Source: Pseudooceanicola marinus
GTDB taxonomy: Bacteria > Pseudomonadota > Alphaproteobacteria > Rhodobacterales > Rhodobacteraceae
Assembly: GCF_002786295.1 (NCBI RefSeq)
Contig: NZ_PGTC01000010.1
Coordinates: 496,001 to 560,000, forward strand
Direction: 5' to 3'
DNA length: 64,000 bases
Shown piece after piece: positions 37,183 to 56,638 of the stretch. The stretch's first letter is position 1, and each line of letters starts with the position of its first letter. A model generated the notes under the pieces. It did no database searches and had not been told where the DNA came from. It was given only the letters and a program-made list of their open reading frames with translations. The position numbers and the translations under genes are program-made.

Positions 37183-37716
37183 GTGCCGCAAACGCCCCCC
37201 GATACTGCTCCCCGAACGCCTGCCACCTGCATCGCGCAGCCCCTGACGCCAGAGGCTTTCGCGCCCCATGGCGATGTCGCCCGTCCGGGCATGGGCGCGG
37301 TCAAGATGATCCGTGAGGGCCAGGTGCGCCTGAGCAAGACCGAAGCGACCTTCCCCCATGACGTGGCTGCGCCAGCGGCGGCGCTGGATTTCTACGAGGT
37401 CGAGCCCAGTGAGGCGCCCCTGCGGGCCACCATGGTCGAACGGCATCCCTTCTCCACCCAGATGTTCTGCCCCATGGAGTCGGGCCGCTGGCTTGTCGCC
37501 GTCTGGCCCGACGGGCCCGAGGGCGCGCCGCAGGCCTTCGTGGCCGGTTCCGGTGACGTGGTGACCTATCGCCCCGGTCTGTGGCATCATGGCATCGTCG
37601 CGCTGGATCGTCCGGCCACCTTCGCCTCGCTGATGTGGAAGACGGCGGACGGGCAGGGCGACACCGAGTTCCTGGAGCTGCCCGCCCCGGTTCTGATCGA
37701 CTGGCCTGACGCATGA
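37183..37716 (+). CDS. allA: Ureidoglycolate lyase-like protein
   Basis: A 177-residue cupin-fold enzyme of the Ureidogly_lyase family, which cleaves ureidoglycolate to glyoxylate and urea in purine (allantoin) breakdown. Recognisable blocks are QPLTPEAFAPHGDV, RHPFSTQMFCPMESGRWLVAVWP, GDVVTYRPGLWHHGIVALDRPATFASLMW (the metal-binding histidines). It starts with GTG 37183 with GGAAAG upstream, and its TGA overlaps the HyuA-like start (ATGA). Urea so released could feed the urease encoded 15 kb away. A homologue with a changed substrate is possible, as family members also occur in other ureido pathways. Confidence 0.82.
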   Translation: MPQTPPDTAPRTPATCIAQPLTPEAFAPHGDVARPGMGAVKMIREGQVRLSKTEATFPHDVAAPAAALDFYEVEPSEAPLRATMVERHPFSTQMFCPMESGRWLVAVWPDGPEGAPQAFVAGSGDVVTYRPGLWHHGIVALDRPATFASLMWKTADGQGDTEFLELPAPVLIDWPDA

Positions 37717-39524
37717 GCGGGACACATCTGGCCGTGGATTTCGGCGCCCGTTTTGCCGATTTCGTCGCTTGGGACGAGGGCAGCCTTCGGATCTGCAAGG
37801 TGCCCAACAGGGGCGACGTGACCCAGGTGACCCGTGCCGGGCTGGCCGAGCTGGGCCTGACCGGGGCGGAGCTGGACAGCCTCCGCTTCGTCAGCACTGC
37901 CCCGCTGAACGCCCTGCTGGATCGCGCCCCGGGGGAGGTTGCCCTGCTGACCACCCGCGGCTTTGCCGATACCCTGCGGCTGGGGAGGCAGAACCGCGTC
38001 GCGCTCTACGATCCGGTCGCGGCTTCTCCCGCACCGGCCTTCCTGGTGCCGGAGGCCCGGATTCACGAGATCGGCGGGCGTCTCGATGCCAGCGGGGCCG
38101 AGGTGGAGGCCCTGTCGCAGACCGACATGGAACGGGCCATCGACGCCCTGCGGCGCGAGGGCGTGAAGGCGGTGGCGGTCTGCTTCCTCTTTTCCCATCT
38201 GAACCCCGCGCATGAGAAGCAGGCGGCCGAGGCCCTGCGCGCGGCCCTGCCCGAGGTGGCGATCAGCCTGTCCTACGTCATCGACCCGGCGCCGCGCGAA
38301 TACGACCGCACGGTATCGGCGGCGCTGGATGCCTGGATCGCGGCGCGTGCGGGCGACACCCTGGCGCAGCTGCGCGGGGCCCTGCCGGAAGGGTTCGCGG
38401 GCCAGATCCTGCTGGGTGAGGGACGCGGCGTGCTGGTGCCCGAAGAGGTCTTCGACCGGCAGCGTGCCGTCCTGCTGACCGGCGCCCCGGCGGCAGCGGG
38501 CCGGGCCGGTGCCCGCGCATCTGTTGGGCCGGAGGCGCCGGAGGATACCCTGGTCCTCGACATCGGCTCGCAGAGCGCCGACATCGCCCTGGTGCAGGGT
38601 GGCGAGCCGGTCAGCGTTGATTTCTCCCGCTTCGCCGGGGTCGACCTGCGCGCCACCATGGTCGACATGGCCAGTGTCGCTTTGGGCGGTGCCCGCGGGG
38701 TGCGGCAGGACGGGGTAGAGCTGACCTTCGACGGAAGCGCGCCCGAGGCACCGTGCTTGGACGATGCGCTGGCGGTGTTGGGGCGTCTGCCCGATCCGGG
38801 CGACGCGGCGCGCGCGTGCATCTCGGGCTTTGTCCCCGGGAAGGCGGTGGAGGAGACCGCGCGGCAGATCGTCCGGGCCGCCGCAAAGACCGCTGCGCTC
38901 GCCCTGATCCGCTACGCCACCCGGCGCAACGTGGATCCGGCCCGCGCTGGTCTTTGCGTCATGGGCGGCACCGGCCCCCTGCTGGCGGCCGAGATCGCCG
39001 CGGAGATGGACGCGACCTCCGTCTCGATCCCCCGCGCGCCAGCTGTGGCTGGCGCCATGGGCCTGGCCCAGGCGCCCCGCCGGCGGGAGGCCATCCGTCG
39101 CGCCGACAGCGCCCTTGCCGATCTCGGCGATGCGACACTAACCGGACTGCTGGAGGCGCTTGAGGCCGAGGTGACAGGCGAGGGTACGCCGGTCTGGACC
39201 CTGACCCTGGCCGCGCGGGCGCCCATGCACCCGCTGCAACTGACCACGCGGACCCGCCCGGCCTCGGTCGCGGCGATCCGCGAAGACCTGGCGCGCGCCT
39301 ATGACACCCAGTTCGGGGTGGCCCCGCCGGGACCGGGGCACCTCTTTTCCATCCGGCTGTCGCACGACACGATCACCGCGATGCCGGTGATGCCCGGCGC
39401 CGGCGCGCCGACACCTGACGCCGCCCGCCTTGTCACCACCGAGGCCGGGGCGATCTATCTGCCCGAGGGCTGGGACATCACGCAGGACGGCGCCGCCTAC
39501 CGCCTGACGAGGAGCGCGCCATGA
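37713..39524 (+). CDS. Hydantoinase/oxoprolinase A-type subunit
   Basis: A 603-residue homologue of HyuA / oxoprolinase N-terminal half, the ATP-dependent partner of HyuB in opening hydantoin-, oxoproline- or acetone-type substrates. Blocks seen: HLAVDFGARFADFVAWDEG at the N-terminus, LLTTRGFADTLRLGRQNR, SLSYVIDPAPREYDRTVSAALDAW, VLDIGSQSADIALVQGGEP and CVMGGTGPLLAAEIAAEM. The two phosphate-binding loops normally read xDxGGTxTDxV and DMGGTSTD; here they are GARFAD and IGSQSAD, so nucleotide binding may be altered. It is shorter than the usual 680-700. It overlaps both neighbours by four bases (ATGA). Confidence 0.82.
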   Translation: MSGTHLAVDFGARFADFVAWDEGSLRICKVPNRGDVTQVTRAGLAELGLTGAELDSLRFVSTAPLNALLDRAPGEVALLTTRGFADTLRLGRQNRVALYDPVAASPAPAFLVPEARIHEIGGRLDASGAEVEALSQTDMERAIDALRREGVKAVAVCFLFSHLNPAHEKQAAEALRAALPEVAISLSYVIDPAPREYDRTVSAALDAWIAARAGDTLAQLRGALPEGFAGQILLGEGRGVLVPEEVFDRQRAVLLTGAPAAAGRAGARASVGPEAPEDTLVLDIGSQSADIALVQGGEPVSVDFSRFAGVDLRATMVDMASVALGGARGVRQDGVELTFDGSAPEAPCLDDALAVLGRLPDPGDAARACISGFVPGKAVEETARQIVRAAAKTAALALIRYATRRNVDPARAGLCVMGGTGPLLAAEIAAEMDATSVSIPRAPAVAGAMGLAQAPRRREAIRRADSALADLGDATLTGLLEALEAEVTGEGTPVWTLTLAARAPMHPLQLTTRTRPASVAAIREDLARAYDTQFGVAPPGPGHLFSIRLSHDTITAMPVMPGAGAPTPDAARLVTTEAGAIYLPEGWDITQDGAAYRLTRSAP

Positions 39525-41083
39525 GCGATACGCTGAAGATCCTGCAGCTGCGCCTCGACGGGCTGGCCGAAACCATGCAGCAGACCCTGCTGCGCTGTGC
39601 CGTCTCGCCGGTGGTGCGCGAAGGGGCCGATGCCTCCTGCGCGCTGTTTTCGCCGCGGGGCGAGGTGTTGGCCCTGGCCGAGGCGATCCCGCTTCTTCTG
39701 GGGGCGCTGCCCGGGTCGGTGCGCGCGATCCTCGATGCCTATCCGGCGGAGACGATGCAGCCCGGTGACATCTTCGTCACCAATGATCCCTTCTCCGGCG
39801 GGACGCATCTGCCTGACATCGCCGTGGTGCAGCCGGTCTTCGCCGAGGCGCGCCTGGTCGCCCTGTCGGCCAGCCTGCTGCATCATCAGGACATCGGCAG
39901 CACCCGCGCGGGATCGGTGCCGCCCGATGCCACGGAGATCTTCCACGAGGGCCTGCGCCTGCCGCCCCTTCAGGCAGGGCACGCGGGGCAGTTCGACCCG
40001 GCGTTCGAGCGGCTGATCCGCGCCGCGTCGCGCGTACCCGACGTGGTGGTGGGCGATCTGGAAACCCAGCTGGCCGCCGGGTTCCGCGCGGCCGAGGGCG
40101 TGCGCCGCCTGGCGGGAGAGGCGGGGGCGGAGAGCTTCCTGGCGGCCTGCGACGCGATGTTGGACCGGGCCGAGGCCGCGACCCTGGCCCGCCTGTCGGA
40201 CCTGCCCGCCGGGCCCTTTGCGGGTGAGGATGAGCTGGACCCGGTCGCCGGGCTTGGCCCCTGCGCGGCGCGGGTCTCCCTGCGTTTCGAAGCGGGGCGG
40301 ATGATCGCGGATTTCCATGGCTCCTCGCCGCAGGTGGCCGCACCAGTGAACTGCGTCCGCTCGGGGCCGCTGTCGGCCACTTTCTACGGGCTGCTGACCC
40401 TGCTGGACGAGGGCGCCCTGCGCAACGGTGGCGTGCTGCGTTGTCTCGACCTGCGCCTGCCCGAGGCCAGCGTGGTCAACGCCGCGCCCCCGGCGGCGGT
40501 GAACGCGCGGATGAACATGGTGCGCTGCATCACCTCGGCCCTGTTGCAGGCCCTGGCCCAGGCGGACGGCGCGGGCATGCCCGCAGCCAATTCCGGCATG
40601 TCCTATGTCATTGCCTTTTCCGGCACGGATGACGCCGGCCAGCGGTTCCTGTCGACCGAGATCGTCGCCGGCGGCGCCGGCGGCGGCCCGCGTGCCGATG
40701 GCTGCCCGGCGATCTCGACGGACGTGGGCAACGCCATGAACATCTCCGCCGAGGCGCTGGAGTCGCTGGTGCCGATGCGCCTGCTGTCTGCCGAAATCCG
40801 GCGCGGGTCGGGCGGGCCGGGGCAGTTCCGCGGCGGTGATGGGGCAAAACGCGTCTACGAGGCGCTGGCCGATGGCATCGCCGCCTCGATCCGGGGCGAA
40901 CGGTTTTCCCGCGTGGCGCAGGGCGCCCATGGGGGCGGCGCGCCGAAAGGCTCGGCTGTGACGGTGCTGCGGGTGGATGGCGGGCGCGAGGAATTGACCG
41001 CGCGGTCGGCCATCACGCTGAACCGGGGCGACCGGGTGGTGATCGAAAGCTCCGGCGGGGCTGGATACGGCACCCCGGCCTAG
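39521..41083 (+). CDS. Hydantoinase B/oxoprolinase subunit
   Basis: A 520-residue HyuB-type subunit, which supplies the amide-opening site of ATP-dependent hydantoinases. Family blocks: LKILQLRLDGLAETMQQTLLRCAVSPVVREGADASCALF, ILDAYPAETMQPGDIFVTNDPFSGGTHLPDIAVVQPVF, HHQDIGSTRAGSVPPDATEIFHEGLRLPP, NMVRCITSALLQALAQA, and the C-terminal GGPGQFRGGDGAKRVYEA with GGAGYGTP. Motifs look intact, unlike its HyuA partner. It is coupled to the A subunit by ATGA overlap. Substrate remains open: hydantoins, N-methylhydantoin or a ureide are all compatible with its neighbour. Confidence 0.88.
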   Translation: MSDTLKILQLRLDGLAETMQQTLLRCAVSPVVREGADASCALFSPRGEVLALAEAIPLLLGALPGSVRAILDAYPAETMQPGDIFVTNDPFSGGTHLPDIAVVQPVFAEARLVALSASLLHHQDIGSTRAGSVPPDATEIFHEGLRLPPLQAGHAGQFDPAFERLIRAASRVPDVVVGDLETQLAAGFRAAEGVRRLAGEAGAESFLAACDAMLDRAEAATLARLSDLPAGPFAGEDELDPVAGLGPCAARVSLRFEAGRMIADFHGSSPQVAAPVNCVRSGPLSATFYGLLTLLDEGALRNGGVLRCLDLRLPEASVVNAAPPAAVNARMNMVRCITSALLQALAQADGAGMPAANSGMSYVIAFSGTDDAGQRFLSTEIVAGGAGGGPRADGCPAISTDVGNAMNISAEALESLVPMRLLSAEIRRGSGGPGQFRGGDGAKRVYEALADGIAASIRGERFSRVAQGAHGGGAPKGSAVTVLRVDGGREELTARSAITLNRGDRVVIESSGGAGYGTPA

Positions 41084-47586: not shown

Positions 47587-48597
47587 ATGATGAAGACACT
47601 TGCCGTTTCCGGCGCCCTTGCCCTCGCCATTACCGCCGGCGCCCAGGCGGAAACCCTGCGCTACGCGCATTTCATGTCCGCCAACAGCTGGCAGAACCAG
47701 GTCATCTTCGAAGACTGGGCCGCCGCCGTCGAAGAGGCCGCCGGTGAAGACCTGGACGTCGAGGTCTACCCGGCCCAGACTCTGGGCAAGGCGCCCGCGG
47801 GCTACGACAACGCCATGATGGGCATCGCCGACATCGCCTGGACCGTGCAGGGCTACACCGCCGGTCGCTTCCCGCTGAGCCAGATCATGGAGCTGCCGGG
47901 TCTGTTCGACACCGGCGCCGTCGGTTCCTGCGCCTTCCAGAAGCTCTATGACAGCGGCGCGCTGGACGCGGAATATGACGAGACCCATGTCCTTTTCGTG
48001 CACACCCATGATCCGGGCCACCTGCACACCGCCGACAAGCCGGTCGAGAACCTGGACGACATGCGCGGCCTGAAGCTGCGCCGACCGACCCAGGTCGTCG
48101 GCACCCTGCTGGAAAACCTTGGCGCGGAACCCGTGGGCATGCCCGCGCCCAACACCTACGAGGCGCTGCAGCGCGGCGCCATCGACGGCTACATGCTGCC
48201 CTGGGAAAGCGTCGAGAGCTTCCGCCTGGATGAGCTGTCGGGCTACCACACCGAGTTCGGCTTCTACGCCCTGGCCTTCGTCGCCACGATGAACAAGGCC
48301 AAGTACGAGGGCCTGTCGCCCGAGGCCAAGGCCGCCATCGACGCCAACTCCGGTATGGAGTGGGCCGTGACCGCAGGCCGTGGCTACGACGAGGCCGGCG
48401 CCAAGGTCCTGGAAGGGCTGCGCGAAACCTCGACCGTGATCGAACTGTCCGAGGAAGAGCGCGCCAAGTGGAGCGAAGCCGCCCAGGCCGCCTCCGACGC
48501 CTATATCGCCGAGCTGGACGGCATGGGCCTGCCGGGCACCGAGACCTATGCCGCCGTGCAGGGCTACGTCAGCGAGTGCGAAGCCGAGCTGAACTGA
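47587..48597 (+). CDS. dctP: TRAP transporter substrate-binding protein
   Basis: Periplasmic binding protein of a tripartite ATP-independent transporter, 336 residues. Signal peptide of about 21 residues (MMKTLAVSGALALAITAGAQ) precedes ETLRYAHFMSANSWQNQVIFEDWAAAVEEAAGEDLDVEVYPAQTLGKAPAGYDNAMMGIADIAW; the conserved DctP region R-x(7)-G-x(4)-N is visible as MRGLKLRRPTQVVGTLLENLGAEPVGMP, with the arginine that binds a carboxylate. Downstream lies a strong palindrome before dctQ. Ligand presumably an organic acid or amine-containing acid. Confidence 0.92.
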   Translation: MMKTLAVSGALALAITAGAQAETLRYAHFMSANSWQNQVIFEDWAAAVEEAAGEDLDVEVYPAQTLGKAPAGYDNAMMGIADIAWTVQGYTAGRFPLSQIMELPGLFDTGAVGSCAFQKLYDSGALDAEYDETHVLFVHTHDPGHLHTADKPVENLDDMRGLKLRRPTQVVGTLLENLGAEPVGMPAPNTYEALQRGAIDGYMLPWESVESFRLDELSGYHTEFGFYALAFVATMNKAKYEGLSPEAKAAIDANSGMEWAVTAGRGYDEAGAKVLEGLRETSTVIELSEEERAKWSEAAQAASDAYIAELDGMGLPGTETYAAVQGYVSECEAELN

Positions 48598-48676: not shown

Positions 48677-49192
48677 ATGGTAATAGCGACGGTCCGGCGG
48701 GTTGCCCGCGTGATGGAGGGAGGCAGCCTGATCCTGGGCGCGATCTGCCTCTTCTACATGGTCTGCGTGGTGGGGGTGAACGTGCTGGCACGGATCATCT
48801 TCGACGCCACCGATACGGCTGTGAACCTGATGATCCCCGGCGCTATCGAACAGGTCTCCTACCTGCTGGGCATCGTGGCCCTGGCGGGGCTGACCGCCTC
48901 GATGGCCCATGGCATGATCGCCGTGGACTTCCTCGTCGCCCGCCTGCCCAGCCTGGGCCAGGCGCTGGTGGCGCGGTTCTGGTTCATCGGCATGGTGGCC
49001 CTGGCGCTGGTGCTGACCTGGCTCTTCTACGAGGACATGCTGGCGACCTATGCCCGCGGCGAGGACACCCAGGACCTGCGCCTGCCGATGTTCCTGATCT
49101 ACGGCCTTTATGCGGCGCAAAGCCTGGCCCTGGCCATCGTCGCCCTGCGCGAGGTGCTGACCAGCCATGGCGACCACGGGGAGATGACCTGA
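48677..49192 (+). CDS. dctQ: TRAP transporter small permease
   Basis: A 171-residue membrane protein with four hydrophobic helices, matching the DctQ family: EGGSLILGAICLFYMVCVVGVNVLARIIF, GAIEQVSYLLGIVALAGLTASMAHGMIAVDFLVARLP, RFWFIGMVALALVLTWLFYED and LRLPMFLIYGLYAAQSLALAIVAL. The M-A-H-G-M-I-A-V-D stretch is the family core. The dctM start overlaps its last base. Membrane partner of DctP and DctM. Confidence 0.9.
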   Translation: MVIATVRRVARVMEGGSLILGAICLFYMVCVVGVNVLARIIFDATDTAVNLMIPGAIEQVSYLLGIVALAGLTASMAHGMIAVDFLVARLPSLGQALVARFWFIGMVALALVLTWLFYEDMLATYARGEDTQDLRLPMFLIYGLYAAQSLALAIVALREVLTSHGDHGEMT

Positions 49193-50511
49193 TGACACCC
49201 CTGATGATCGGCTACGCCTGCATCGGCGCCATGTTCGTGATCCTGATCCTCGGCGCGCCCATCGGGCTGGCGATGATCACCGTGGGCTTCGTCGGCTTTT
49301 CCGCCATCATCGGCATGACGCCGGCGCTGGCGGTGCTGAAGACGGCGACCTTCGAGACCATCACCAACTATTCCTTCACCCTGATCCCGCTGTTCCTGCT
49401 GATGGGCAACCTGATCTCGCGCTCGGGCGTGGCCGCCGACCTGTTCCGCGGCGCGCTGCTGCTGACGCGCGGCTGGTCCGGCGGGCTGGCGGCGGCGGGC
49501 ATGACCGCCAGCGCCGTCTTTTCCACCGTGTCGGGCTCGTCCCTGGCCACCGCCTCGACCATGACCCGCGTCGCCTACCCGGAGATGAAGGCGCACGGCT
49601 ACGATCCGCGCCTGGCCACCGGGTCGCTGGCCGCAGGGGGGACGCTGGGCATCCTGATCCCGCCCTCGATCGCGCTGATGCTTTATGCCCTGATCACCGA
49701 GCAATCGGTGGGCACGATGTTCCTGGCGGGCATTCTGCCCGGCATCCTGGCCTTTGTGCTCTACATCGTCACCATCCTGATCATGTCGCGGATCTGGTCC
49801 CCGGACCCGGAAATTGCCGCGCAGGCCATTGCGTCGGAGGCCGAGGCCGCGGGCCCCGCCCGCCGGTTCGAGACGCTGCGCCTCTTCGCGCCGGCGATCA
49901 TCCTCTTCGGGTTGGTGATGGGCGGGCTCTACGGCAACTTCTTCACCCCCACCGAGGCCGGCGGCGTCGGCGCCGCGCTGTCGCTGATCTTCGCCCTGTG
50001 GCGCCGGGTGCCGCGCGCCGAGCTGGTGGCGGCCTTTGTCGAGACCATCATCACCTGCGGCTCGATCTTCCTCATCCTGATCGGCGCCGAGGTCTTCGGC
50101 TTCGTCCTGTCGACTTCGCAGCTGTCGAACGAACTGGTGCGTTTCCTCGACGGAAGTGGCTTTGGCCCCTGGCAGGTGCTGATCGTGATCCTGGTCTTCT
50201 ACGTGATCCTGGGCTGCTTCATGGAAAGCCTGGCGATGATCCTGCTGACCGTGCCGATCTTCTTCCCCGTCGTCCTGGCCAACGGGTTCGACCCGATCTG
50301 GTTCGGCGTCATTGCCGTGGTCACAGTGGAGCTGGGGATGATCACGCCCCCCGTGGGCATGAACCTCTTCATGGTCAAGAGCGCCTCGCGGGACACGAAA
50401 CTGACCACGATCATGACCGGGGTCATCCCCTTCGTGGTGACCGACGTTATCCGGCTGGGCATCCTCCTGGCCTTCCCGGCGATCTCTCTGCTGCTGACCG
50501 GGCGGCTGTGA
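49192..50511 (+). CDS. dctM: TRAP transporter large permease
   Basis: A 439-residue DctM permease with about 12 helices. Signature segments: GAPIGLAMITVGFVGFSAIIG, NYSFTLIPLFLLMGNLISRSGVAADLFRGA, GMTASAVFSTVSGSSLATASTM, AAGGTLGILIPPSIALMLYALITEQSVG and TVELGMITPPVGMNLFMVKS. It carries the sodium-coupled transport function. A 12-bp GC stem follows, before the GS-like gene. Confidence 0.95.
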   Translation: MTPLMIGYACIGAMFVILILGAPIGLAMITVGFVGFSAIIGMTPALAVLKTATFETITNYSFTLIPLFLLMGNLISRSGVAADLFRGALLLTRGWSGGLAAAGMTASAVFSTVSGSSLATASTMTRVAYPEMKAHGYDPRLATGSLAAGGTLGILIPPSIALMLYALITEQSVGTMFLAGILPGILAFVLYIVTILIMSRIWSPDPEIAAQAIASEAEAAGPARRFETLRLFAPAIILFGLVMGGLYGNFFTPTEAGGVGAALSLIFALWRRVPRAELVAAFVETIITCGSIFLILIGAEVFGFVLSTSQLSNELVRFLDGSGFGPWQVLIVILVFYVILGCFMESLAMILLTVPIFFPVVLANGFDPIWFGVIAVVTVELGMITPPVGMNLFMVKSASRDTKLTTIMTGVIPFVVTDVIRLGILLAFPAISLLLTGRL

Positions 50512-50607: not shown

Positions 50608-52071
50608 ATGACATCTTCATCTCATCATGACCGGATCGCGGCGGGCCGCCTGGCCCGCGAGGGCCTGCTGGACGCGGAGGCCGTGACGGCGGCGGCCGAG
50701 CTGCTGGCCCGTGTCGAGGGCAGCGAGATGGAGACGGTGCGCGTCGTCTTCGCCGATCAGCACGGGTTGTTGCGCGGCAAGACGGTGACGGCGGCCAGCC
50801 TCGGCTCGATCTTCCGCGCCGGGCTGAACCTGCCCGGGACCCTGCTGCTGAAGGACACCTCGAACCGCACCGTCTTCCCGGTCTGGGAAGGGGCGGCTGA
50901 GGGGGTGATGAAGACCATGGCAGGGGCGGGCGACATGCTTCTGGTGCCCGATCCGGCCACCTTCCGCATCCTGCCCTGGGCGCCGCATTCCGCCTGGCTG
51001 TTCTGCGATCCCTATACCCGCACCGGCGAGGCGCTGCCCTTCGCGCCACGTCCCGTGCTGCGCCGCGCCGTGGGGGCGCTGGCCGAACGGGGCCTGTCCC
51101 TGACCGTGGGGCTGGAGGTGGAGTTTCACGTCTATACCCGTGAGGCCGCGAACCTCGGCCACCAGCAGGCCGGCATGCCCGGCCAGCCGCCGGAGACGGC
51201 GCTGCTGGACCAGGGGTATCAGTTCCTCGCGGATGCCAACTACGACCGGCTGGAGCCGATCATGGACCTGCTGCGCCGCCACGCCCAGGCCCTGGGCCTG
51301 CCGGTCCGCTCGACCGAGGTGGAGATGGGGCCGAGCCAGTTCGAGTTCACTTTCGATCCGGCCAGCGCGCTGGAGCATGCGGACAACATGATCATGTTCC
51401 GCACCATGGTGAAGGAGGTCTGCGCCCGCGAAGGGCTGCATGCCACCTTCATGTGCCGCCCGAAGAAGGAAAACGGCGCCTCCAGCGGTTGGCACCTGCA
51501 TCAGTCGCTGGTGGACGGCGAGGGGCGCAACGTGCTGATCCCCGAGGCGGAGGGCGCCCTGACGCCCGAGGCCAGCGGCTGGATCGCCGGCCTGCTGAAC
51601 CATGCCGAGGAAAGCTGCCTGCTGACCACGCCCACGGTGAACGGCTACAAGCGCTATCAGCCCTATCAGCTGGCACCGGATCGCATCGAATGGGGCTACG
51701 ACAACCGCGGCGCCATGGTGCGCGCGCTGATGGCGCCGGGCGACGGGGCCAGCCGGGTGGAAAACCGCGTGGCGGAACCGGCGGCCAACCCCTACTTCTA
51801 CTTCGCCTCGCAGATCCTGTCGGGGCTGTCGGGCCTCGACCAGGGCCTGACCGCGCCCGAGCCGGTCGAAAGCCCCTATGACAACGACGCCACCGCCCTG
51901 CCGCCCAGCCTGATCGCCGCGATCGAGGCCTTCGAGGCGGGCGACCTGTACCGCCGCGCCCTGGGGCCGGAGTTCGTGGAATACATGTCGGTGCTCAAAC
52001 GGGCCGAATGGAAACGCTACCTGTCGGTCGTGACCGAATGGGAGCACACCGAGTATTTCGGGATCTTCTGA
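50608..52071 (+). CDS. Glutamine synthetase-like ligase
   Basis: A 487-residue GS-family protein (gamma-glutamyl ligase type). Active-site blocks are seen: LTVGLEVEFHVYT (Glu), VRSTEVEMGPSQFEFTFD (Glu), GASSGWHLHQSLVDG (His), NGYKRYQPYQLAPDRIEWGYDNRGAMVR (Arg) and ASRVENRVAEPAANPYFYFA (Glu-Asn-Arg). Its N-terminal beta-grasp has FADQHGLLRGKTV. Sequence patterns fit the GS-like enzymes that gamma-glutamylate amines (PuuA, TdnQ) better than GlnA. It follows a TRAP transporter and is near a Rieske oxygenase, as in aniline-type pathways. Substrate is not known. Confidence 0.82.
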   Translation: MTSSSHHDRIAAGRLAREGLLDAEAVTAAAELLARVEGSEMETVRVVFADQHGLLRGKTVTAASLGSIFRAGLNLPGTLLLKDTSNRTVFPVWEGAAEGVMKTMAGAGDMLLVPDPATFRILPWAPHSAWLFCDPYTRTGEALPFAPRPVLRRAVGALAERGLSLTVGLEVEFHVYTREAANLGHQQAGMPGQPPETALLDQGYQFLADANYDRLEPIMDLLRRHAQALGLPVRSTEVEMGPSQFEFTFDPASALEHADNMIMFRTMVKEVCAREGLHATFMCRPKKENGASSGWHLHQSLVDGEGRNVLIPEAEGALTPEASGWIAGLLNHAEESCLLTTPTVNGYKRYQPYQLAPDRIEWGYDNRGAMVRALMAPGDGASRVENRVAEPAANPYFYFASQILSGLSGLDQGLTAPEPVESPYDNDATALPPSLIAAIEAFEAGDLYRRALGPEFVEYMSVLKRAEWKRYLSVVTEWEHTEYFGIF

Positions 52072-52073
52072 CC

Positions 52074-52412
52074 ATGCCCCACGTCGTCATCGAGTATTTC
52101 ACCGAAGACCCGCTGGACCGCACCGCCGTCCTGCAAACCGCGCTGGACACGGCCGCCGGCAGCGGCGTGATGAACCGCGCCGACATCAAGGTGCGGCTGG
52201 TCCCGTCGGAGGCGATCCTGATGGGGGACGGGCGGTCGTCCTTCCTCCATGTGACGATCTCCATGCTGACGGGCCGCACGGATGAGGCGAAGCTGGCGGT
52301 GGCCCAGGCGATGACCGGGGCGCTGCGCGATCTCTGCCCGCAGATCGGCGCGATCAGCACCGACATCCGCGACATGAACCCGGCCTGCTACAAGAAATCC
52401 CTCGCAGAGTGA
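52074..52412 (+). CDS. 5-carboxymethyl-2-hydroxymuconate delta-isomerase-like tautomerase
   Basis: A 112-residue CHMI-family protein. Pro follows the initiator Met (MPHVVIEYFTEDP), so Pro1 can be the catalytic base as in other tautomerase-superfamily enzymes. Other family blocks: RADIKVRLVPSEAILMGDGRSSFLHVTISMLTGRT and ISTDIRDMNPACYKK. In homoprotocatechuate breakdown the enzyme isomerises a muconate; here it is isolated from that pathway but follows the GS-like gene with only two bases between. It may tautomerise an intermediate of an unknown aromatic pathway. Confidence 0.85.
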   Translation: MPHVVIEYFTEDPLDRTAVLQTALDTAAGSGVMNRADIKVRLVPSEAILMGDGRSSFLHVTISMLTGRTDEAKLAVAQAMTGALRDLCPQIGAISTDIRDMNPACYKKSLAE

Positions 52413-52496: not shown

Positions 52497-52985
52497 TCAG
52501 GCGCTGAAGGGGCGGAACCCGGCGGCGTCGCCCATCAGGCGGGGCAAGTCGGCCAGCACCTCCGCCGCGGCGAGGGGGCGGGCAATGGGACGCGACGACA
52601 GGCCGAACCCGGTGAAATAGGCGGGCTCGCCCAGGCGGATGTCGGCGGGCAGGGCGGTGTTTGCGCGGACATCCAGCCAACGCCACTCGCCCGTGCCCAG
52701 CAGGGAGACCTCTGCGGCCTCGCCTTCGGGGCGCGTCACCGTCAGGACCATGGTGTCGATCAGACCGGCATAGCCGTCGCGCAGGTGCAGTGGCACCGGC
52801 GCATCCGGGGCAAGGCCGTCGATTTCCATCACGGGGGCATGGCACAGCAGCATCCAGGCCCAGCTGAGGTCGTGGCGCGCCATCATCTGGCGCACTGACT
52901 CCTTCAGGGTGAAATAGCCGTCCAGAATGTCGTGGAACGGCTGCGCATGATCCCCGGCGTGCCCCCCGTTTTCGGGCAGGATCAT
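52497..52985 (-). CDS. Unknown protein coupled to the split oxygenase
   Basis: A 162-residue protein starting MILPENGGHAGDHAQPFHDI. Its ATG overlaps the stop of the oxygenase alpha subunit (ATGA), so it is a strongly linked partner. Visible features: ILDGYFTLKESVRQMMARHDLSWAWMLLCHAPVMEIDGLA, an acidic stretch, and TGEWRWLDVRANTALPADIRLGEPAYFTGFG. It has only one cysteine, so no iron-sulfur cluster, and I see no signal peptide. The general length and position resemble beta subunits of Rieske oxygenases, but sequence similarity to the SnoaL-like beta fold is not evident to me. Function unknown. Confidence 0.75.
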   Translation of the reverse strand: MILPENGGHAGDHAQPFHDILDGYFTLKESVRQMMARHDLSWAWMLLCHAPVMEIDGLAPDAPVPLHLRDGYAGLIDTMVLTVTRPEGEAAEVSLLGTGEWRWLDVRANTALPADIRLGEPAYFTGFGLSSRPIARPLAAAEVLADLPRLMGDAAGFRPFSA

Positions 52986-54214
52986 ACCGTCGCGTCCCAG
53001 GGCGCAGCCTGGCGGCGCTCCATGTCGGCGGCCATGCTTGCGCCCAGCCAGTCGTCGCTGTCGGCGATGGCGTCGTTGGACAGCGGCCCCATGATCTGCG
53101 GCGTGGTCTGCATGTCCTGCATCGGCAACCGGTCCAGCTTGCCCGTCTGCACGGCCTTGATCGCCTTGCGCAGCAGAAGGCGGTACCGGATGATCGCCGC
53201 ATCGCCCCGGCCCAGGTGTTCGCGGGTCCGGTCCTGGATCGCGCCCATGCTTTCCACCGCCCATTGGTCATGCACGTTGATGTCCATGCCCATGCCCGTG
53301 TAGGTTAGCGATTTCTGCTCTTCTGGGTCGTAGTGGTAGTTGTTCGAGGCGTTCTTCAGCGGCGCGTAATCGGGCAGGCTGTGTTCCTTCAGGCGCTGCT
53401 CGCGCATCAGCTCCTTGTTCACCGGTTTGTCGAAGCTGGTGAACATCGTGAACCAGTAGCAGTTCTCGTCGTCGACGGGCACGTGCCACTGGGTGATGAT
53501 CATCTCGCGCGACATCGGGATGCAGATGGCCGAGGGGAAGATCTGGTTGGTGACCCGCACGTGGGTCAGCCCGCCCTTCATGTGGCGCAGCGAGGTGATC
53601 TTCAGGCCGAAGGGGGTCTCGTCCACCTCGATGTCCGGGCGGGGATACTCGCGCAGCACCTGGGTGATCGGCATGTCGGTATTCGCGGCCTTGTCGCGGA
53701 ACTGCTTGCCGTAGCCGTCGCTGGGGTCCTCGTCCTGCAGGAAGCGGTGCAGGAAGGAGGCATGGCTGGGGTCGATGCCGATCTCCAGCGCCTGCAGCCA
53801 GTTGCATTCCCACAGGCCCTTGAAGGCGAAGACATGGCTTTCGGGGGCGCGGAAACAGTCGAAGTTTGGGAAGGCCGGCGCCTCACCCTCGCCCATGAAG
53901 GCAAAGCAGATGCCGTTCTTCTCGACCACCGGGTAGACGGGGCCGCCCTCGACCAGGCGGATCTCCTCGCGCGCGGGGTGATGGGTGGGGGCCTCGTCGG
54001 CGCTGGCCTCGCGGGTGGCCAGGATCAGGTCTCCGGCCTCGTCCCTCATCATGACCAGGCGTTCGCCCAGCAGGTTCACGGGCAGCATGGGATCGTTGGC
54101 GCCGGCCAGCTCATCGGTCAGGGCGGCCGGCTGCCAGTACTGGCGATGCACGGCGCCGGCGGGGGTGTCCGGGCCGATGCGGGTGATCTGGTCGTTCAGC
54201 TTCTGGGTAATCAT
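52982..54214 (-). CDS. Rieske oxygenase catalytic subunit lacking the 2Fe-2S ligands
   Basis: A 410-residue oxygenase alpha-type protein of the phthalate-4,5-dioxygenase kind (typical N-terminus NDQITRIGPDTPAGAVHRQYWQPA). Catalytic iron site: ECNWLQALEIGIDPSHASFLHR (His151 and His156, after the conserved CNWLQALE) with the later acidic ligand in the QDRTREHLGRGD region. The usual Rieske segment between LGERLVMMRDEAG (about 50-60) and YPVVEKNGICFAFMGEG (94-110) is replaced by about 35 residues with no CxH or CxxH. A separate Rieske protein is encoded 66 bases upstream. Together they seem to make one oxygenase from two polypeptides. Substrate unknown. Confidence 0.85.
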   Translation of the reverse strand: MITQKLNDQITRIGPDTPAGAVHRQYWQPAALTDELAGANDPMLPVNLLGERLVMMRDEAGDLILATREASADEAPTHHPAREEIRLVEGGPVYPVVEKNGICFAFMGEGEAPAFPNFDCFRAPESHVFAFKGLWECNWLQALEIGIDPSHASFLHRFLQDEDPSDGYGKQFRDKAANTDMPITQVLREYPRPDIEVDETPFGLKITSLRHMKGGLTHVRVTNQIFPSAICIPMSREMIITQWHVPVDDENCYWFTMFTSFDKPVNKELMREQRLKEHSLPDYAPLKNASNNYHYDPEEQKSLTYTGMGMDINVHDQWAVESMGAIQDRTREHLGRGDAAIIRYRLLLRKAIKAVQTGKLDRLPMQDMQTTPQIMGPLSNDAIADSDDWLGASMAADMERRQAAPWDATV

Positions 54215-54280
54215 GTGGGGCTCCTTTGCGGGAACGCGTGGGGAAGATGTGGGGCGCGCGGCGCCAGAGGGAAGGGGGGC

Positions 54281-54679
54281 TCAGGCGTCGAAGGCGGGGG
54301 GGGTGCCCTCACCGGACCAGGCGAAGATCTCTCCGTTCCGTTCGACCACGGTGAAGCTGGGCAGCTTGATCGCCTTGTACATGGTGGAATCCACAGGCTC
54401 GGCAGGCTGTTCGGTGCATTGGCCCGACCGGTCGAAATGCCAGCCGTGGAAGGGGCAGCGGATGCCGTTGTTCTCATGCCGGCCAAAGCAGAGGTCGGCG
54501 CCACGGTGCGGGCAGTAGCGGCCGATCAGGCCCAGCTCGCCTTCCTCGTCGCGGAACAGCACCAGTTTCTGGCCGAAGGCCGTCACCGGGGTCACCGGTC
54601 GCGGGCCGGCCAGGGCGTCTGTGCTGGCGATCTTTACCCAGGTCGACGGGACGGTCTCGGGTTGGGTCGCTTGGCTCAT
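54281..54679 (-). CDS. Stand-alone Rieske [2Fe-2S] protein
   Basis: A 132-residue protein consisting only of the Rieske domain of an aromatic oxygenase alpha subunit. Ligands: Cys56-Pro-His58 in YCPHRGADLC and Cys75-Pro-Phe-His78 in RCPFHGWHFD; the surrounding GELGLIGRYCPHRGADLCFG and HFDRSGQCTEQP match full-length oxygenases. It lies upstream of the ligand-less alpha subunit and probably completes it. A start at 54679 is preferred over an upstream ATG because the Rieske fold begins soon after. It differs from small Rieske ferredoxins by the CPHRGAxL / CPFHGWxFD motif set. Confidence 0.9.
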   Translation of the reverse strand: MSQATQPETVPSTWVKIASTDALAGPRPVTPVTAFGQKLVLFRDEEGELGLIGRYCPHRGADLCFGRHENNGIRCPFHGWHFDRSGQCTEQPAEPVDSTMYKAIKLPSFTVVERNGEIFAWSGEGTPPAFDA

Positions 54680-54927
54680 GTCTCTACTATCCTCTGGGGC
54701 GCCCGGACCGGCATCTGCCGCCTCTTCGGGCATTTAATCTGGGCGATAATCGACCACTTGGGCTTTATTCAAACTTCTCATTGATTTTGGATCCGGTCAA
54801 TGCCAATGATCGAGCCAACGCAGCACGGCGACTGTCTGCCAGTGAAACGCCCCTGAAATCGCCCCATGCCGATCAAAAAGGCATCAGTGCCGGGCAGGCG
54901 GGGCGGCAAGGATGTAACGAGGATCGC

Positions 54928-56121
54928 ATGAGCGCCAAGATCGCAATTGTCGGTGGCGGGCCTTCGGGGTGCTACACCGCCCAGGCCCTTCTGAAACGCG
55001 CCCCCGATCTGGAGGTGGACGTGATAGATGCCCTGCCCGTGCCCTACGGGCTGGTGCGCTATGGCGTGGCCGCCGACCATCAGGGGACCAAGGGCGTGGC
55101 GCGGCAGTTCGCGCGCCTCTTCACCCGGCAGAAGGCGCAGTTCTTCGGCAATCTGCGGGTGGGCGAGGACGTCTCCCTCGACGAGTTGCGCGCGGCCTAT
55201 GACGCGGTCGTCCTGGCCACGGGCCTCTCGGCGGACCGCCCGTTGGGCATGCCGGGCGAGGATCTGCCGGGCGTCATCGGCGCGGGCGCTCTGACCCGCG
55301 CGCTGTACGAACATCCCGACGCCACCGACCTGCCGCATCTGGGCGCCACGCCGGTGGTCATCGGTACCGGGAACGTGGCCATCGACGTGCTGCGCCTGCT
55401 GGCCAAGACCCCGGCGGAGCTGCACGGCAGTGACCTCGGCGCCGGACCCAGCGACTGGCTGGCCGCCCAGGGGATCGAGCGGATCACCGTGATCGGCCGT
55501 TCGCCCGCGGCCGCCGCCCGTTTCTCGCCGGTTATGGTGAAGGAGCTGGGAGAGCTGTCGCGCGCCGAGATCCAGGTGCGCCACCCGGCGCCCGAGGCCG
55601 AAGACGCGCTGAACCTGGCTGCCGCGGCCTCCTCCGGCCCGCTGCCGATCGAGTTCCGCTTCGAGACCCGGCCCCTGGCGCTGGAGGCCACCGAGAGCGG
55701 GCTGCGCCTGACGGTCGAGACCCCCGAGGGCGAGGATCGGATCGACGCCAGTTCCGTCATCTCGGCCATCGGATTCACCTGCGACGGGCGGCTGGATCGC
55801 GCCGGGCTTCTGGCCGAGGCGGAGGCGGGCGCAGCCTCGCGCCTTTACGCTGCCGGCTGGTTCCGGGGCGGCCCCACGGGCGCCATCCCGCAGTGCCGCG
55901 AAGAGGGACAGGCCCTGGCCGCGCGAATCCTGGAGGAGATCTCCCCCGATCCCGCCCGCCCGGGCCGCGGGCTTTTCGCCGGTCGCGCGGGCGTTGTCGA
56001 TTTCGATCACTGGCAGCAGATCGACGCGCAGGAACTGGCCGCCGCCCCCGAGGATCGCTGCCGCCGCAAGTTCGCCCGCCGCGAAGACCTTTTGCGTCCC
56101 GCTCTTTCTCAGGACGAGTGA
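54928..56121 (+). CDS. FprA-type NADPH:ferredoxin/adrenodoxin-like reductase
   Basis: A 397-residue FAD protein of the adrenodoxin reductase/FprA family. The N-terminal FAD motif IAIVGGGPSGCYTAQALLKRAP and the typical PYGLVRYGVAADHQGTKGVARQF sequence define it; a second nucleotide motif appears at VVIGTGNVAIDVLRLLAK (NADPH). Near the end YAAGWFRGGPTGAIPQCREEGQALAARI carries the FAD ribityl-binding Asp-less motif of the family. It would pass electrons from NADPH to the following flavodoxin or to the Rieske protein. It is divergent from the Rieske gene, with a 248-base shared promoter region. ATG 54928 follows GAGG. Confidence 0.9.
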   Translation: MSAKIAIVGGGPSGCYTAQALLKRAPDLEVDVIDALPVPYGLVRYGVAADHQGTKGVARQFARLFTRQKAQFFGNLRVGEDVSLDELRAAYDAVVLATGLSADRPLGMPGEDLPGVIGAGALTRALYEHPDATDLPHLGATPVVIGTGNVAIDVLRLLAKTPAELHGSDLGAGPSDWLAAQGIERITVIGRSPAAAARFSPVMVKELGELSRAEIQVRHPAPEAEDALNLAAAASSGPLPIEFRFETRPLALEATESGLRLTVETPEGEDRIDASSVISAIGFTCDGRLDRAGLLAEAEAGAASRLYAAGWFRGGPTGAIPQCREEGQALAARILEEISPDPARPGRGLFAGRAGVVDFDHWQQIDAQELAAAPEDRCRRKFARREDLLRPALSQDE

Positions 56122-56194: not shown

Positions 56195-56638
56195 ATGAAG
56201 ATCGCCATCTACTACGGAACCGAAACCGGCAACGCCGAGATGCTGGCCGAGGATATCGCCACAGAGCTGGAGGACGCGCACGAGACCTCCGTCGCCGACC
56301 TGGCCGAGACCGCGCCCGAGGCGCTGAAGGCGGCGGAGCTGAATGTGATCGTCTGTTCCTCCTACGACGACGGCGATTTCCCCGCCTCCGCCAAGCCCTT
56401 CGTGGAAAAGCTGAATGACGAGAGTCCCGACTTGTCGGGCGTCCGCTTCGCCGTCTTCGGGCTGGGCGACAGCGAGTACGAGGCGACCTACGGTTTCGGC
56501 TCGATGAAGCTGGCGGATCTGCTGGTCGCGTGCGGCGCCACCACCCTGGGCGAACGGATTGTCCATGACGCCGCCGGTGATGACCTGCCCGAGGATCTGG
56601 CGCTGCCCTGGCTGGCCGGGATCCTCGAAACCGCCTGA
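56195..56638 (+). CDS. Flavodoxin-domain protein (MioC-like)
   Basis: A 147-residue FMN-binding flavodoxin-fold protein: MKIAIYYGTETGNAEMLAED carries the phosphate loop (TETGNAE), followed by LNVIVCSSYDDGDFPASAKPF and FAVFGLGDSEYEATYGFGSM, which form the isoalloxazine-binding loops. It resembles MioC and the N-terminal domain of sulfite/cytochrome P450 reductases. The gene is 73 bases after fprA on the same strand, so the pair could supply electrons to the nearby oxygenase. Alternative roles in methionine synthase or biotin synthase reactivation are possible. Confidence 0.85.
   Translation: MKIAIYYGTETGNAEMLAEDIATELEDAHETSVADLAETAPEALKAAELNVIVCSSYDDGDFPASAKPFVEKLNDESPDLSGVRFAVFGLGDSEYEATYGFGSMKLADLLVACGATTLGERIVHDAAGDDLPEDLALPWLAGILETA

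Follow-up and report, generated by a model that had tools for sequence, protein, structure and literature searches.

Rieske oxygenases pass electrons between neighboring subunits, although the Rieske cluster and the catalytic iron are fused in one chain. Rieske-type ferredoxins serve oxygenases that have a Rieske cluster of their own, cumene dioxygenase being an example. In isophthalate dioxygenase (9ina, 9ioy) and phthalate dioxygenase (7fjl), Comamonas testosteroni KF1, the Rieske cluster resides in the same chain as the catalytic iron, in contrast to the locus described here. For isophthalate dioxygenase an alpha3 trimer has been reported, in which the distance from cluster to iron is 12.5 Å between subunits and 45 Å within one subunit, with D174 as the bridging residue and H177, H182, and D337 as iron ligands (PMC12445078). 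A different arrangement has been described for caffeine N7-demethylation in Pseudomonas putida CBB5. There, NdmC has no Rieske cluster, an extra cluster is situated on the reductase NdmD, and the GST-like protein NdmE is postulated to align NdmC and NdmD (PMC4408171). This system contradicts the statement, made in the original prediction for the locus analyzed here, that known oxygenases have both centers in one chain. No further split Rieske oxygenase was found among the titles and abstract beginnings listed from the open-licence literature.

The locus lies in the window, i.e., the whole stretch of 64,000 nucleotides of Pseudooceanicola marinus DNA that was analyzed. We consider it quite probable that it encodes a duplicated, split Rieske oxygenase, in which P0002 would feed the iron of P0001 in trans, P0003 would be a dedicated partner, and a gamma-glutamyl amide would be the substrate. 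The three genes and the sites discussed below are:

54281-54679, minus strand: P0002, stand-alone Rieske [2Fe-2S] protein, 132 aa (Pfam Rieske PF00355, E 1.9e-21)
52982-54214, minus strand: P0001, catalytic alpha-type chain without Rieske ligands, 410 aa (phthalate/isophthalate-dioxygenase type)
52497-52985, minus strand: P0003, third protein, 162 aa (predicted PPC/DUF296-like fold)
54446-54514, minus strand: cluster ligands C56-x-H58 ... C75-x-x-H78 of P0002 (motif in the sequence)
53936-54010, minus strand: 25-residue stretch, P0001 residues 69-93, replacing the 54-residue cluster-binding stretch of one-chain relatives (alignment)
53747-53773, minus strand: bridging Asp D148 and iron ligands H151 and H156 of P0001 (alignment)
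53267-53269, minus strand: third iron ligand D316 of P0001 (alignment)

The gene order on the minus strand is P0002, P0001, P0003. The original prediction had placed all three open reading frames and their lengths correctly, including the third gene, which starts within the stop codon of P0001 (ATGA) with an overlap of 4 bases. It was also right in assigning a Rieske domain to the neighboring 132-residue protein, which contains both ligand pairs and matches PF00355, and in recognizing that the alpha chain keeps the mononuclear iron motif (D148-P-S-H151-x4-H156). Its view that the ligand-bearing stretch of the alpha chain is replaced by one without ligands holds as well, but the replacement, between R68 and Y94, is 25 residues long and not about 35. 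A sequencing error, with the missing motif in another frame, had been named there as a possible refutation. Between 53700 and 54300, none of the six frames contains a CxH...CxxH motif, and the layout is common to 22 distinct alphas; therefore, a sequencing error or frameshift is rejected. The dN/dS values of the three genes, calculated against five close relatives, are low (0.035-0.43), as in working genes, which rules out pseudogenes.

For comparison, 110 loci were analyzed, 30 from genome searches and the best 80 of 136 relatives. Among these loci, the alpha chain lacks the Rieske ligands CxH...CxxH in 26, as P0001 does, and has them in the remaining 84. The 26 loci without ligands comprise 22 distinct alphas. 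Their hosts are Rhodobacteraceae-type bacteria, mostly marine by name. The free Rieske gene is located directly upstream of the alpha gene in all 26 split loci compared, and the two genes overlap by 4 bases for 16 of the 22 distinct split alphas. Homologs with Rieske ligands in the alpha chain, regarded beforehand as an argument against a split enzyme, do exist (84 of the 110 loci), but they stand apart as a set that shows neither extra gene in the available flanks and from which the split form appears to be derived.

The alpha counts given in the following are based on 22 split and 77 one-chain proteins, after omission of the window locus L001 (kept as the query), the incomplete L021, L088, and L091, and the duplicates L002, L004, L006, L008, L011, L012, L106, and L108. 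P0001 has the overall subunit fold of a phthalate/isophthalate dioxygenase-type Rieske oxygenase alpha and is 54-69% identical to 12 aligned one-chain relatives. Pfam matches were obtained for LigXa_C and VanA_C, while the Rieske domain was not matched. The interval between R68 and Y94 comprises 54 residues, including both ligand pairs, in 77/77 one-chain alphas, versus 25 residues in 21 of the 22 split alphas and 23 in the remaining one. That the replacement stretch has acquired a metal site of its own was considered and rejected, since Cys is present in only 3/22 and His in 16/22, so that neither is universal. Complementation by a second, intact alpha was likewise rejected, because the own genome contains no further match to P0001 at E 0.001. 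The residues D148, H151, H156, and D316 are invariant in all 22 split and all 77 one-chain alphas; counted along a pairwise alignment, they correspond to D174, H177, H182, and D337 of isophthalate dioxygenase (PMC12445078). The Rieske base that is left in P0001 is predicted to fold even without a cluster (ten-residue pLDDT means of 79-94 for residues 41-110), and the model is weak at residues 152-172 and 275-324 (pLDDT <50), within the catalytic part.

The two parts of the split alphas have been conserved differently. In pairs whose catalytic identity is near 80%, the leftover Rieske base is 58% identical between split alphas, and the corresponding part is 78% identical between one-chain alphas. 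The mean pairwise identity of the catalytic region is 0.81 among split alphas and 0.72 among the one-chain alphas, which are the more diverse set. The loss of part of an otherwise standard domain and the divergence of the leftover base would also fit a protein that has left redox catalysis and became a lyase, a hydrolase, or a regulator, with the loss of the Rieske part as a step of decay. Yet the high identity of the catalytic region among split alphas, the retention of all ligands, and the low dN/dS make such a change of function very improbable.

The stand-alone Rieske protein has retained what P0001 has lost. The ligand motif is kept in all 26 stand-alone proteins, and in P0002 its spacing equals that of C69/H71/C88/H91 of isophthalate dioxygenase (PMC12445078). 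An alternative start at 54733 would extend P0002 to 150 aa; its closest relatives share the initial M of the 132-aa form. The Pfam content is restricted to Rieske-type domains, and a fusion to a reductase is not present in the 132 aa. In the PDB, alphas are matched first (1.3e-31), and the best ferredoxin follows at 2.9e-05. Over the cluster tip (residues 49-100), P0002-type proteins and the nearest one-chain alphas share 85% identity, and these alphas share 91% among themselves. In contrast, the two base parts have only 50% and 41% identity to these alphas, versus 85% and 71% among the latter.

The alpha tree contained the 22 split and 77 one-chain proteins and 20 outgroup sequences, and it was calculated with a quick method and has some long outgroup branches. 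Here the split alphas group together as a single clade (SH-aLRT 100) that lies within the one-chain family. The stand-alone Rieske proteins are likewise a single clade (99), placed among the Rieske domains of this family and apart from the outgroup, in a tree that has few columns, was made with a quick method, and includes no ferredoxin rows. The forks that place the free Rieske proteins within the family are weak (68-86), and therefore the exact source of the free Rieske gene is unsure and duplication is the simplest, but not the sole history. It would comprise one duplication of a one-chain alpha gene followed by complementary loss: the front copy would have been trimmed to the Rieske domain, today's P0002, and the back copy would have lost the cluster tip, resulting in P0001.

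The third gene follows the split alphas closely. A P0003-like gene is present in the flank of 18 of the 22 distinct split alphas; for the other four the flank is about 1.5 kb long, and in the respective genomes (G208, G222, G165, and G056) the gene follows downstream, at a distance of about 1.5 kb and with the same orientation. The P0003 profile matched in 20 split loci and in no one-chain locus. Neither a second P0002-like ORF nor a P0003 profile match was found in any of the 84 one-chain loci within the available flanks, which extend over at least 1 kb on both sides in 77/84 and at least 5 kb in 42/84. At the genome level, the alpha search covered 295 genomes, and the searches for P0003 and the free Rieske protein covered 290 genomes from this family group; all three included the nine genomes with a split alpha. 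The P0003 profile matched in 9/290 genomes, the same nine that hold a split alpha, and among 385 genomes of the class and 299 of the phylum it matched in none except the own genome. A free, short frame of the P0002 type was found at E 1e-30 only in the nine split genomes of the 290, when a remnant in G245 is set aside. This short frame was rejected as a tenth free Rieske protein, because it is the front of a one-chain alpha that runs out of frame. On the respective contig (C997, L140:1812-2351), the tail of a gene for a glutamine synthetase-like (GS-like) protein overlaps the broken alpha in another frame, and the frame is a deletion remnant or an assembly error, as judged from the sequence. 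The genome G192, which belongs to the same genus, has no match to the alpha or P0003 (both E 0.001) or to the free Rieske protein (E 1e-30), and thus the split unit is patchy even within the genus.

P0003 itself cannot be assigned to a known family by its sequence: no Pfam family was matched by any of 18 members at E values up to 1, and a single weak PDB match (E 0.022) was to another kind of protein. Among the listed entries, PPC-type structures match the predicted model of P0003 best, and the PPC-like fold is a putative one.

Two genes that may supply the electrons are encoded on the other side of the split genes and are divergent to them:

54928-56121, plus strand: P0007, FAD/NAD(P)-type reductase (Pfam Pyr_redox_2, E 2.1e-13)
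56195-56638, plus strand: P0004, short flavodoxin, MioC-like (Pfam Flavodoxin_1, E 5e-27)

The best NCBIfam match of P0004 is MioC, under its cut-off. P0007 is a candidate electron source for P0002, and P0004 is a candidate electron carrier. The two genes adjoin the split genes only in the window (L001) and in L031, L032, and L034. This neighborhood could also be read in another way, namely, that P0002 is a mere Rieske-type ferredoxin for another acceptor and that P0001 is fed directly by a carrier such as the flavodoxin P0004. The adjoining reductase and flavodoxin genes would suit this, and P0002 is as small as the Rieske ferredoxins of three-component oxygenases, which are small free Rieske proteins as well. 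However, in the tree without ferredoxin rows P0002 nests among the Rieske domains of alpha subunits, and its tip has an alpha-like identity. Furthermore, its free form is confined to the nine split genomes of the 290 at E 1e-30 (apart from the G245 remnant), and P0001 has kept the bridging Asp, which is invariant. Taken together, a ferredoxin function of P0002 for another acceptor is improbable.

The sequences show which genes are present and that they are conserved and occur together, that the split arose once, and from which family the Rieske chain descends; this is good evidence for a working two-chain Rieske oxygenase with a dedicated third protein. How the proteins assemble, how electrons travel, what P0003 does, and which substrate is used we infer as follows. 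In related enzymes the Rieske cluster of one subunit already serves the iron of its neighbor, so it would have acted in trans before the split, and splitting would have been possible without a change in the electron path. The conserved tip of P0002 would meet D148, the bridging aspartate of P0001, and electrons would flow from P0002 to the iron that H151, H156, and D316 coordinate. The base of P0001 has diverged, whereas the tip of P0002 and the catalytic domain with its bridging Asp have been kept, and this points to a tip-first docking of P0002 on the catalytic domain of P0001. The docking on the vestigial Rieske fold that the original prediction had proposed may also apply. Most simply, P0003 would serve as a scaffold or cap and hold P0002 in place on a three-fold ring of P0001. 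To our knowledge, no scaffold role of this kind has been described for the PPC fold. A more specific version, which we put forward tentatively and with less than even confidence, is an obligate complex in which three alphas without a cluster form a ring and are joined by three free Rieske chains and a trimer with the PPC fold. In such a complex, the loss of the cluster tip would have created a socket into which the free chain fits, and the PPC protein, as a trimer, would have been recruited as a matching three-fold scaffold.

P0001 keeps a folded base and P0002 has its own, and therefore the ancestral position of the Rieske domain would be unavailable unless the leftover base moves. Such a movement is the core of a variant of the favored reading, with odds that overlap with those of the latter: P0002 would displace the leftover base of P0001 and take the old Rieske position, where it would stably imitate a single subunit, and P0003 would stay outside of the assembly, e.g., as a substrate-binding or regulatory protein. 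The conservation of the tip suits the old geometry, and the leftover base has diverged faster. Nevertheless, we regard this variant as rather unlikely, because the leftover base is still predicted to fold, the replacement stretch is fixed at 25 residues in 21/22 split alphas, as if it kept a structural place, and the distribution of P0003 over 290 genomes coincides exactly with that of the split alpha.

The favored reading of a split oxygenase with P0003 as a dedicated partner includes a guess about the substrate, which is based on the first of two genes that are convergent with the P0002-P0001-P0003 genes:

50608-52071, plus strand: P0006, glutamine-synthetase-like ligase, 487 aa (8wwu, E 9.4e-113)
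52074-52412, plus strand: P0005, CHMI/tautomerase-like protein (Pfam CHMI, E 4.5e-07)

The closest PDB entry to P0006 is 8wwu with 380.6 bits, followed by the next one with 185 bits. 8WWU is the arylamine-glutamylating enzyme NpaA1, which acts on 1-naphthylamine as well as on other arylamines; the gamma-glutamyl product is then oxidized by a Rieske dioxygenase (PMC11335346). A GS-like gene is present in the flank of 102/110 loci, the best 80 of 136 relatives included. It is on the strand of the alpha gene in 82/84 one-chain loci. Of the 26 split loci, 11 have it on the strand of the alpha gene and 9 on the other strand, and 6 show none in the available flank (L006, L041, L042, L044, L047, and L050). 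The flank of L006 is short, and its duplicate L040 does show a GS-like gene; in the other five the absence may be real or limited by the flank. The similarity of P0006 to NpaA1 and the frequent GS-like neighbor thus suggest a gamma-glutamyl amine, and our best guess for the most likely substrate is, by analogy, the gamma-glutamyl amide of an amine, presumably an arylamine, made by P0006. The homarine pathway was considered as another source of the substrate and was abandoned, as none of the papers listed in the literature search mentioned homarine.

P0005-like genes are found near the closest split relatives (L031-L035), and P0005 possibly belongs to the same pathway as the split oxygenase. 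CHMI-like genes also occur beside the one-chain alphas of L075, L076, L077, L080, and L104. By reading, ORFs that resemble a TRAP-type transporter are located directly before the GS-like gene of the window (47587-48597, 48677-49192, and 49192-50511), and this set may import the substrate. Further away, at 37713-41083, the window contains a hydantoinase/oxoprolinase A and B pair (Pfam Hydant_A_N, Hydantoinase_A, and Hydantoinase_B), which is possibly part of a catabolic island for nitrogen compounds. Elsewhere among the split loci, a CobW-like GTPase as well as an amidohydrolase-like protein were noticed upstream by reading (L036:3871-4764 and L040:3942-5486), and thus the neighborhood varies.

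The split enzyme can be used as a natural experiment, in which fused and split enzymes of one family exist and P0003 tracks the split form. It allows testing of Rieske docking, the timing of electron delivery, and perhaps swaps of Rieske chains, and it gives the unnamed P0003 family a concrete, testable role. With the history proposed above, it would also illustrate clearly how an enzyme can be duplicated and its two copies then undergo complementary loss.

Comparison with known systems reveals similarities as well as differences. The one-chain relatives beside a GS-like gene (e.g., L048 and L052) have kept CxH/CxxH in 84/84 cases, unlike P0001. The aniline and 1-naphthylamine dioxygenase systems AtdA/NpaA combine a GS-like ligase with a subsequent Rieske dioxygenase, as may be the case here, but that oxygenase has large and small subunits, unlike the split system (PMC11335346). 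A similar architecture is that of NdmCDE (PMC4408171). In both cases the catalytic chain has no Rieske cluster and the cluster is on another protein, here as judged by sequence, and in both cases a third protein accompanies the pair, NdmE as the postulated aligner of the two chains and P0003 together with the split genes. However, the cluster is on the reductase in NdmCDE and on the free chain P0002 here, the third protein is GST-like in the case of NdmE while P0003 has a PPC-like predicted fold and no Pfam match, and P0001 keeps a cluster-less Rieske base, unlike NdmC as described. In the alpha tree of split, one-chain, and outgroup proteins, to which NdmC does not belong, the nearest relatives of P0001 are one-chain alphas, and therefore the split looks independent of that in NdmCDE. 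The original prediction of a new architecture is thus upheld in part: sequence evidence places the cluster and the catalytic iron on two chains within a conserved three-gene unit, but NdmCDE precedes it. The locus would represent the second split of the reported type after NdmCDE, with one-chain relatives that are up to 69% identical to P0001.
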